This document shows positions 16,282 through 19,176 of a stretch of 64,000 nt of DNA, one piece after another. Position numbers and translations under genes: made by a program. Position 1 is the first letter of the stretch; every line of letters begins with the position of its first letter. The stretch is from a virus: IMG/VR virus record IMGVR_UViG_3300046804_004458, positions 1 to 64,000 of that record. One strand, written 5' to 3'. The notes under the pieces were generated by a model. It had not been told where the DNA came from and made no database searches. It was given only the letters and a program-made list of their open reading frames with translations.

Positions 16282-16956
16282 ATGAAATCAGGAATTTATA
16301 CAATAACAAATATTCTAAACGGAAAGATTTATGTAGGACTATCAAAAAATATTGAACAAAGGTGGGCAGTTCATAAAAGTCATTTAGATAAAAAGAAGCA
16401 TAGTTGTAAATATCTCCAGCATGCATGGGATGCACATGGAAAAGAGTCTTTTCTATTTGAAATATTAGAAGAATGTGAGGAACAGTATTTATGTAGTCAG
16501 GAGAATTGGTGGTGCAATATGTTAGATAGCCATAATCCAAATAGAGGATATAATGATAAACCTACATCTCCTAACTGTAAGTGTAAACAGTCAGATGCCA
16601 CAAAATATAAATTATCAGAGATAGGAAAAAGATATACTGGAAAAAATCATCCGTTTTATGGTAAAAAATTATCAAAAGAACATGTAGCAAAAAGAGTAAA
16701 AAAAGTAGAAAAACTTGTATATAAATACTCAATAGAAGGAGAATTACTTAACACGTATAAAAGTGTAAAAACTGCAGCAGAAGAAAATGGTGTATCAATT
16801 AATAATATATCCGCATGTTGTTCAGGAAAACAAAATACTAGTAAAGGATGTGTATTTTTATTTACAGAAATATTTGAAATAAGAAAAGATAAAAGAAATA
16901 GAAATCCAATAAGTGGAAAATATGAGAAAAACTCCGGAAGATCATGGAGTGGTTAA
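16282..16956 (+). CDS. GIY-YIG homing endonuclease with NUMOD motifs
   Basis: 224 aa free-standing homing endonuclease. The catalytic domain is at the N-terminus: SGIYTITNILNGKIYVGLS (GIY-x10-YVG), then the catalytic Arg in EQRWAVHKS and a Glu in CSQENWW (about residue 74). Next come a NUMOD3-like element (GKNHPFYGKKLSKEH, about 114-128) and a NUMOD1-like DNA-binding element (VYKYSIEGELLNTYKSVKTA, about 142-161, continuing to CCSGKQ). Such enzymes cut a cognate site lacking the insertion and spread by gene conversion. It follows the structured 136-bp gap and is followed after 12 nt by the next operon gene. A TATATATG box 3 nt before the ATG is too close to be its promoter. Confidence 0.9.
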   Translation: MKSGIYTITNILNGKIYVGLSKNIEQRWAVHKSHLDKKKHSCKYLQHAWDAHGKESFLFEILEECEEQYLCSQENWWCNMLDSHNPNRGYNDKPTSPNCKCKQSDATKYKLSEIGKRYTGKNHPFYGKKLSKEHVAKRVKKVEKLVYKYSIEGELLNTYKSVKTAAEENGVSINNISACCSGKQNTSKGCVFLFTEIFEIRKDKRNRNPISGKYEKNSGRSWSG

Positions 16957-17346: not shown

Positions 17347-17740
17347 CATGTTTGAGGACATGAGAGCAGCCGGAAGTCAGCTACCTGATATAGTAGAAAC
17401 TCTCAAAAAAAGAGGCTGGAAAACTTATGAGCACCACGATAACTGGATACATCCTAATGTCTTAGGTCAATTCACTACACATCAGGCATATGAATACAAA
17501 GGAATGATAAATGTACCTGCATCAGAAGCAGTGAGGTTTCTTAGCAAGGCTTTGATAGAAGATCGAGCATATTGGGATGGATGGGTTGCAAATATTGCAA
17601 TGTCAATATACGATGAGTATATGGAGAAGCTCCCAAACACCAATACTGTAGTAAAAGGTGCATTGCTTGAGATATTTAATAATGGTGCAGACAGGTTTCT
17701 GAAACTTTTGACAGCAGAAAAAACAACAGACAATGAGTAA
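17327..17740 (+). CDS. Hypothetical helical protein, 137 aa
   Basis: Mostly helical; contains RGWKTYEHHDNWIHPNVLGQ and Ala-rich helices. Its stop TAA overlaps the ATG of the truncated nuclease copy (ATGAGTAA, 17733-17740), showing that the nuclease gene was originally coupled directly to this gene. Confidence 0.52.
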   Translation: MEQNKNDMFEDMRAAGSQLPDIVETLKKRGWKTYEHHDNWIHPNVLGQFTTHQAYEYKGMINVPASEAVRFLSKALIEDRAYWDGWVANIAMSIYDEYMEKLPNTNTVVKGALLEIFNNGADRFLKLLTAEKTTDNE

Positions 17741-17813
17741 AGAGAAAAAAGAACAGAAGTATTATAACGGCATTGCTGTTGATAGCCAGGAGGAGGTAAT
17801 GACAAAAAAATAG
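17733..17813 (+). pseudogene. Truncated 5' end of the PD-(D/E)XK nuclease gene left by HNH insertion
   Basis: 26-codon remnant whose first 24 residues match the start of the intact nuclease at 18589: MSKEKKEQKYYNGIAVDSQE against MSKEKNEKKYYNGIQIDSIE, with 18 of 24 residues identical but only 49 of 72 bases. Homology stops at the ACA/ACT Thr codon, after which three codons lead to TAG. It is coupled to the preceding gene as the native start would be. Confidence 0.8.
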
Positions 17814-17844
17814 TTGTTAAATTAAATCAACTGTTCTATTTTTG
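17814..17844 (+). promoter_or_regulatory. Promoter of the HNH element, TTG-N20-TATTTTTG
   Basis: TTG (17814-17816), 20-nt spacer, TATTTTTG (17837-17844), a full match to the Bacteroidota TAnnTTTG box, 14 nt before the ATG. It lies entirely within the inserted segment, so the homing gene carries its own host-type promoter. Confidence 0.6.
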
Positions 17845-17858
17845 TATAAAATAATATT

Positions 17859-18623
17859 ATGCAAAAAATAGATAAAACAGGATTGAGATTTGGTAAATTA
17901 TTAGTTATTTCAAAGGAAAATAATGATACCTATTTATGTAAATGTGATTGTGGTGTAGAAAGACTATTTAGAGATAAAAATTTATGTAAAACAGGATCTA
18001 AAAGTTGTGGTTGCAATATGGGAAAATGGGGCAGAGGTATAAATTTTCTTGGAATGACCAGAAAACTACTTACCTGTACTGCTAAATTACCAGATGATAA
18101 ATGGGAGTGGACATGCAAATGTGGTAATAAAATTATTCTTAGTGGATGGAGAAAATATAATATTAAATGTTGTAGTTTATCTTGCCCTGAATTAAATAAA
18201 GAAAGAGGTGCTTCTCATAGAAAACCAAAAAATAGAACTATAAATGAGCAGTACAATAGTCATAGATATAATGCAAAAATTAGAAATCTAAATTCTTTAC
18301 AAAAAGAAGATTGGTTAAAAATTGTTTTTTTGCCCTGTTATTATTGTGGTGAAACTGACACAAGAAATTATGCCAAATATCCAGCTTATAGAAAAAAACT
18401 GAAGAATACTTTAACAGAAGATATTATTGCAGAGTTTGAGGTAAAAATGAACGGAGTTGATAGATTAGATTCAACTAAAGGTTATGATATAGAAAATTGT
18501 GTTCCTTGTTGCGGTACTTGTAATTTTATAAAAAGTGATTGTACAGAAGAAAAATTTATTATTCATATAACTAAAATATATAAACATTATGTCAAAGGAG
18601 AAAAACGAGAAAAAATATTATAA
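17859..18623 (+). CDS. HNH homing endonuclease with N-terminal zinc-ribbon DNA-binding repeats
   Basis: 254 aa. Two N-terminal Cys-rich units (TYLCKCDCGVERLFRDKNLC then SKSCGC; and WEWTCKCGNKIILSGWRK) are zinc-ribbon-like DNA-binding elements typical of phage HNH homing proteins. The HNH nuclease follows: CYYCG (about residue 162), NGVDRLDSTKGYDIENCVPC (about 200-219) and CGTCNFIKSD; in this subclass the first His position is taken by the VDR-Asp form. The last 35 nt overlap the start of the nuclease gene at 18589, so the element supplies the new start of its target. Its codons are A/T-richer than those of its neighbours. Confidence 0.88.
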   Translation: MQKIDKTGLRFGKLLVISKENNDTYLCKCDCGVERLFRDKNLCKTGSKSCGCNMGKWGRGINFLGMTRKLLTCTAKLPDDKWEWTCKCGNKIILSGWRKYNIKCCSLSCPELNKERGASHRKPKNRTINEQYNSHRYNAKIRNLNSLQKEDWLKIVFLPCYYCGETDTRNYAKYPAYRKKLKNTLTEDIIAEFEVKMNGVDRLDSTKGYDIENCVPCCGTCNFIKSDCTEEKFIIHITKIYKHYVKGEKREKIL

Positions 18624-19176
18624 CGGAATACAAATTGATAGTATTGAGGAACAAATGACTGTTATGTACTTTGAGGAACTTATAGAGGCCGGGTATGTAG
18701 AAAAACTTGAAAGAGCTCCTACCTATACTCTTTCTGAAAGGTTAGAGCATAGATATACCCAAGTAGTAGAAATGAAAACAAAGACAAAAGAAGTTGAAAA
18801 GAATCAGGTACTTCTTGAATCTCATGTTTACACTCCTGAGTTTCTTGTAAACTGGACACATGCAGGAGCTGCATTATTTGTAGACAGGATGAATAAAAAG
18901 AGCAAAATAGATGCACATTTTATCGGTGCTTATCGTACTCTTATTGAAGTAAAACCAAACTTTGATCAGAACAATATGACCCGGCTTTTTAAGATCAACC
19001 AGAAGTGGATGTGGGAAAAACATAAGCTATTTGTAAATCTTATACAACCTCATAAGTTGTTTGAGCAAACATTCACTCCAACTGCTTATTTAAAAACTGC
19101 AACAGGAAAGCAAAAAGTGATTCATTGGAAAGTACGTTCAATGGAAAATTATATTACATCCTTAAATAACAACTAA
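18589..19176 (+). CDS. PD-(D/E)XK endonuclease
   Basis: 195 aa. The catalytic core is visible as VYTPEFLVNW (Glu at about residue 82, the acidic position of PD) and TLIEVKPNFDQNNM (E-x-K at about 121-123). Downstream KINQKWMWEKHKLFVNLIQP supplies the aromatic helix and strand seen in TnsA/endonuclease I-like phage nucleases. Likely role: cleavage of branched or unprotected DNA during recombination or packaging. The first 12 codons lie inside the HNH ORF; see the truncated original 5' end at 17733. Overlaps nothing downstream; the next gene begins 5 nt later. Confidence 0.75.
   Translation: MSKEKNEKKYYNGIQIDSIEEQMTVMYFEELIEAGYVEKLERAPTYTLSERLEHRYTQVVEMKTKTKEVEKNQVLLESHVYTPEFLVNWTHAGAALFVDRMNKKSKIDAHFIGAYRTLIEVKPNFDQNNMTRLFKINQKWMWEKHKLFVNLIQPHKLFEQTFTPTAYLKTATGKQKVIHWKVRSMENYITSLNNN

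Follow-up and report, generated by a model that had tools for sequence, protein, structure and literature searches.

A predicted nuclease gene of a crAss-like phage has very probably been invaded by an intron-less homing cassette, in which an HNH endonuclease gene is accompanied by a recoded version of the target-gene segment that was severed by the insertion. The analysed window comprises 64,000 nucleotides (positions 1 to 64,000 of IMG/VR record IMGVR_UViG_3300046804_004458), and the element in it is known from one record. In support of its assignment to the crAss-like group, the phage encodes a 1960-aa protein that is 24% identical to the RNA polymerase subunit of crAss001. The inserted allele is both interrupted and recoded around the insertion point (Table 1). 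Its layout, the origins of its two gene ends and the footprints left by loss of such elements can be read from sequence comparisons.

Table 1. Features of the inserted allele (positions refer to the window)
Feature	Position	Strand	Remarks
Upstream gene, 137 aa	17327..17740	+	Stop overlaps native start of target gene
Stump: native codons 1-24 of target gene	17733..17804	+	Identical to uninserted L011, L001 and L003 at 64/72, 59/72 and 56/72 nt
Insert, 856 bp (junction, promoter-like motif, HNH gene, foreign codons 1-24)	17805..18660	+	BLAST breakpoints against L001, L003 and L011
Bacteroidetes-type promoter-like motif, TTG-N20-TATTTTTG	17814..17844	+	In the gap 5' of the HNH gene
HNH endonuclease gene, PacI-like, N-terminal zinc-ribbon repeats	17859..18623	+	254 aa; last 12 codons overlap target start
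Foreign (recoded) codons 1-24, now start of functional gene	18589..18660	+	Comparison with uninserted relatives
62-nt patch	18616..18677	+	61/62 with uninserted L007-L010 alleles; reaches 17 nt beyond insertion point
Target gene, PD-(D/E)XK-like with weak match to a TnsA-like fold, 195 aa	18589..19176	+	Frame restored by foreign end

The upstream gene ends in ATGAGTAA, and the ATG contained therein opens a short ORF (17733-17813), which encodes MSKEKKEQKYYNGIAVDSQEEVMTKK and starts inside the stop of the upstream gene. The same coupling between the upstream gene and the target start is present in L011 and L007, two relatives that lack the insert. The stump reads MSKEKKEQKYYNGIAVDSQEEVMT, followed by KK and a stop at 17813, and 45 bases separate this stop from the start of the HNH gene. 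The functional target gene starts inside the HNH ORF in another frame, with MSKEKNEKKYYNGIQIDSIEEQMTV; the N-terminus of its 195-aa product is given as MSKEKNEKKYYNGIQIDSIEEQMT. In the BLAST comparison the alignment of L003 to the window runs from 17738 to 17805 and resumes at 18662, with the step at codon 24, and the limits of the insert were placed on the basis of these breaks. A sequence-only reading of the window had described a 24-codon copy of the N-terminus left at 17733 and coupled to the upstream gene; the coordinates and the overlap were both confirmed.

The zinc-ribbon HNH gene that this reading placed in the insert was recovered by profile searches and Foldseek, with zinc-ribbon repeats at the N-terminus and a PacI-like core. 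The closest solved relative of the C-terminal core is the restriction enzyme PacI (structure 3ldy; profile match with E=2.8e-9, Foldseek probability 1.00), and the protein also matches PHROG endonuclease families. It has the HNH (beta-beta-alpha-metal) core with Cys-zinc sites by which we recognised PacI-like members, and the conserved HNH motifs are CxxCG, N-G-I/V-D-R-x-D and CxxCN. Single-sequence search found no close HNH relatives in viral contigs; members of the family were reached only with profiles. The insert had also been credited with its own host-type promoter. A motif of this type does stand before the HNH gene, but motifs of this class show no enrichment in the window, with 7 occurrences against an expectation of about 5.

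Motifs and a weak fold match suggest that the target gene encodes a PD-(D/E)XK nuclease of the TnsA type, the first structure comparison with TnsA yielding E=0.13 and a probability of 0.75. Conservation of the target protein extends to the cyanobacterial Leptolyngbya phage Lbo-JY46 (L004), at 41% identity; a Leptolyngbya record is also among the matches to the crAss-type RNA polymerase protein of the window. A second homing endonuclease gene (16282-16956), of the GIY-YIG type with NUMOD modules, lies 0.9 kb upstream. It showed no end duplication when tested for the same design, and blastn found no match to it in L011. In L003 a different HNH-type gene (2250-2984) lies upstream of the uninserted target gene, which indicates that this neighbourhood draws several homing genes.

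HNH genes are commonly carried in introns, and crAss-like phages with introns are known. The layout could on these grounds be thought to reflect a group I intron or an intein, in which splicing would unite the stump with the remainder of the gene. Such splicing is hardly credible: the window gave no Rfam match to a group I intron even at E values up to 1, the stump contains an in-frame stop three codons past the junction, and the downstream ORF already repeats codons 1-24, which splicing would duplicate. In six related loci no Rfam intron was found at the gathering threshold.

Nine viral contigs and one phage were found to carry the target gene uninserted, and no relatives of it were found in genome contigs or plasmids. 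It is uninterrupted in L001-L003 and L007-L011; the site is thus occupied in some relatives and empty in others. The uninserted relatives have 5' ends of two types: L001, L002, L003 and L011 carry the stump-like AVDSQEE[VI]M, and L007-L010 carry QIDSIEEQM, which resembles the second copy. Over 72 nt the stump matches relatives of the first type best (Table 1) and L007 at 52 positions; the second copy matches L007 at 58 positions and the other relatives at 47 at most. Over nt 28-72 the stump is identical to L011 at 39 and to L001 at 37 of the 45 positions. The first 27 nt of the second copy are not matched well by any relative. Since the stump is an allele of the first type and the second copy an allele of the other, the stump is, on these alignments, native, and the front end of the working gene is foreign. 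This is the outcome predicted by the sequence-only reading, which had derived the new 5' end from a related phage and proposed aligning both ends to uninserted relatives: the second copy groups with L007-L010, the stump with L011 and L001. The pair of copies was found in no relative that lacks the HNH gene, nor does the stump belong to some other intact gene. The residues that are invariant in codons 2-24 of all seven relatives (K3, Y11, G13, D17, S18 and E21) are kept in the second copy, and the insertion point lies just past D17, S18 and E21.

Recomputation returned the identities given earlier for the two copies, 18 of 24 residues and 49 of 72 bases, and the protein comparison of the two flanks of the HNH gene gave E = 3e-14. 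With the copies standing head to tail and sharing so many residues, the 5' end might have been duplicated locally in tandem and later split by the HNH gene, one copy diverging. We consider this very unlikely. The second copy is identical to the other lineage at 61 of 62 positions (nt 28-89) and to the stump at 31 of 45 (nt 28-72), and this closer likeness to the other lineage argues against divergence in place from the stump. Moreover, a native stump is combined with a foreign end in three cases within the HNH family. The earlier view that the copies do not stem from a recent tandem duplication is in accord with the match to L007-L010.

Along the target gene, the identity between the window and L007 is 14/27, then 61/62 (nt 28-89), then 113/151. 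At 75% identity the chance of 61/62 is 4e-7 for one given window. No exact match between the 79.7-kb record, taken as a whole, and the 108-kb L010 record is longer than the 42-nt core of the patch, and the patch is the top window of its size in 15,580 aligned columns of the two phage records. The first 27 nt of L007 resemble the native end, matching the stump at 22/27 positions and the copy of the element at 14/27, on the strength of which the L007-type gene looks, in alignment, like a native start followed by the element patch and a native body. It is as plausible to see recipients or post-loss footprints in the L007-type phages as to see donors in them. An L007-like phage may have been the donor; the L007 gene itself was rejected as a simple, whole donor, its first 27 nt being unlike those of the copy of the element. 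A second L007-like stretch, with a 34-nt exact match, is located near the 3' end of the target gene (19067-19130). The similarity there (57/62 at 19069) suggests repeated exchange within the target gene, away from the insertion.

Mosaicism of this kind, together with the description of homing endonuclease genes at exchange boundaries in phages (PMC10448857), speaks for an explanation in which the 5' end was acquired by ordinary recombination with an L007-type phage, the HNH gene being a passenger or a boundary marker. Ordinary recombination would, however, replace the native end and leave no stump. In addition, the stump and the HNH gene stand exactly at the junction, four further targets show this layout with members of the same HNH family, and the HNH gene was not detected in the L007 records. 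We therefore regard ordinary recombination as unlikely. More generally, a search of ten uninserted records detected the HNH gene in none of them, an empty answer that by itself proves little; some of these records are fragments.

For the cassette reading, the recurrence of the layout was assessed by screening 159 HNH-family loci for gene ends duplicated across the HNH gene. Nine loci passed, with L103 discarded, and represent five distinct target/element pairs. The targets are the nuclease gene of the window, the phi93 methylase, a second methylase (L029), an exonuclease-like gene (L031) and a small conserved gene (the L036 group), and both 5' and 3' ends are replaced among them. The distinct pairs correspond to about 3% of the loci, a minority mode; other family members lie between genes. 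L103 passed the flank test, but consists of tandem zinc-finger paralogues and was not counted, and L024 had appeared only through wrong coordinates. Displaced control windows were positive in 11 of 370 cases, which proved on inspection to be long paralogues, low-complexity sequence or repeats of other homing endonuclease genes; there was no short gene-end stump among the 11. For L029 and L031 the evidence is the 3'-end duplication by itself. In phage cr53_1 an HNH gene of the same family (L018, 2797-3417) stands between two parts annotated as DNA polymerase, with no duplicated ends, and no Rfam intron was matched there at the gathering threshold.

The L036 group comprises five contigs, in which the 5' stump MPKAKDPRLERIGVEGFNKPKRTPDHPTKSHVVVAKEGD is fused in frame to the HNH gene. 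Since uninserted phages carry KKDPRLERAGVAGFNKPKRTPDHPTKSHVVVAKEGDQVKTIRFGQQG, the stump is of a naturally occurring type. A different natural class, represented in the Roseobacter phages CRP-1 and CRP-9 and in a Vibrio phage, includes the second copy, MAIPAKVKNKMEKEGISGVNKPKKTPDHPTKSHVVMAKERDSYKLVRFGQQG; this class was found in CRP-9 and HMO-2011 relatives. An assembly artefact is unlikely in this group because the five assemblies are separate.

The phi93 methylase belongs to a series of Lactococcus phages. Skunavirus records with the native 3' end of this methylase number more than 20. In phi93 and PhiM1127 the gene is nearly identical to that of Phi155 for ~690 nt, the last ~150 nt are recoded, and the HNH gene follows; 3' of it the native end persists as a stump, identical to that of native phages at 119 of 119 positions. 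Four phages, Phi40, FB14, phi145 and Phi109, have the recoded methylase end without the HNH gene. In Phi40, FB14 and phi145 the tail of the native stump directly follows the recoded end, and in Phi40 and FB14 the stop codon is still followed by 16 nt of the element. Since a recoded end joined to a native tail requires an ancestor with both, these three phages are footprints of loss, and their sequences fit loss of the element by deletion. In Phi109 (L105, 781-1518) the switch from recoded to native occurs at the shared AATACTGAACGAAATT with a frameshift, which, as judged from the sequence, fits recombination between the two copies. The Phi109 methylase is truncated by this frameshift exactly at the join of the recoded and native 3' ends.

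How the cassette of the window would cut, home and escape its own enzyme we infer from the known behaviour of homing endonucleases. The HNH enzyme would cut the uninterrupted allele near codon 24. The downstream broken end would then pair with the gene copy of the cassette, and repair synthesis would copy the foreign 5' end and the HNH gene. The other end would be joined at native codon 24, either through homology or, at the initial insertion, through illegitimate joining, and the stump would be the scar of this join. The recoded end would keep the protein whole and would remove the cut site, rendering the cassette cheap and immune to itself. In the functional gene the foreign 5' end extends 17 nt beyond the insertion point; as the recoded end overlaps the presumed cut site, the gene is probably uncleavable. 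The cassette might later be lost, either when stump and copy recombine or through deletion, and a recoded patch without the HNH gene would remain. L007-L010 would fit the former route with a switch at the shared TATTATAACGG: recombination across this segment would yield the L007 layout exactly, with the HNH gene deleted. Gene conversion without the HNH gene would give the same L007-type product.

Homing endonucleases usually spare the host gene by residing in introns, inteins or intergenic sites, or else they split the gene. A recoded spare end would be a fourth solution, and the earlier descriptions we found of it concern fungal mitochondria. There is about an even chance for a broader reading, in which PacI-like HNH genes of phages would be recurrent end-replacing cassettes with cleavage-proof ends, cycles of insertion and loss would rewrite gene ends, and the footprint would be an inheritable immunity allele for phages without the element. 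With such cassettes, mosaic gene ends of phages would have a concrete origin, past insertions would be recognisable after the element is gone, and the immunity allele is testable. The Lactococcus phages are cultivable and show the native, inserted and post-loss states at one site, which makes the whole cycle amenable to laboratory testing.

The sequence-only reading had considered the design undescribed for HNH genes of crAss-like phages. We likewise found no report of replaced gene ends in phages in the open-licence literature, but the design is not specific to crAss-like phages and recurs elsewhere. A 2025 survey of HNH genes in Skunavirus found the PacI-like type to be rare (2 of 268, twice in 89 genomes) and confined to one location, H1 (PMC12724721). 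These genes are probably elements of the phi93/PhiM1127 type; in a word search, the main text of that survey yielded no reference to a methylase stump or to duplication of the methylase end. Among T4-type phages, free-standing HNH genes inside phage genes are represented by mobE in Aeh1 nrdA and by mobA in gene 60 (PMC2988022). There the target stays split into two polypeptides, whereas here the recoded part is supplied and the protein remains whole.

End replacement by phage HNH cassettes is real and recurrent, and has precedents in fungal mitochondria. In Tremella fuciformis mitochondrial introns are associated with host gene duplications, for which a fragment-exchange model of gain and loss was proposed (PMC7315562). 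As in the phages, insertion of an element and its later loss replace part of the host gene; the Tremella elements are predicted introns of fungi, whereas the phage genomes carry a free HNH gene and no intron. End replacement was also described for Phlebia atp6 and cox2 (PMC4019555). Closest in layout are Allomyces macrogynus atp6 and Glomus atp6, atp9, cox2 and nad3, which have foreign C-terminal ends (PMC3630166). In these cases, too, a free endonuclease gene lies in a conserved gene and brings a foreign end in frame, creating a hybrid gene; the native end remains beyond the endonuclease gene, the two ends are diverged, and the donor is another species. The window shares with these mobile ORFs the foreign end and the native remnant, but not the 3' location or the LAGLIDADG or GIY-YIG endonuclease of the described mitochondrial cases. 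Here the element resides in a phage, its endonuclease is a PacI-like HNH enzyme, the replaced end is the 5' end (the 3' end in phi93, L029 and L031), and post-loss stages are represented as well.
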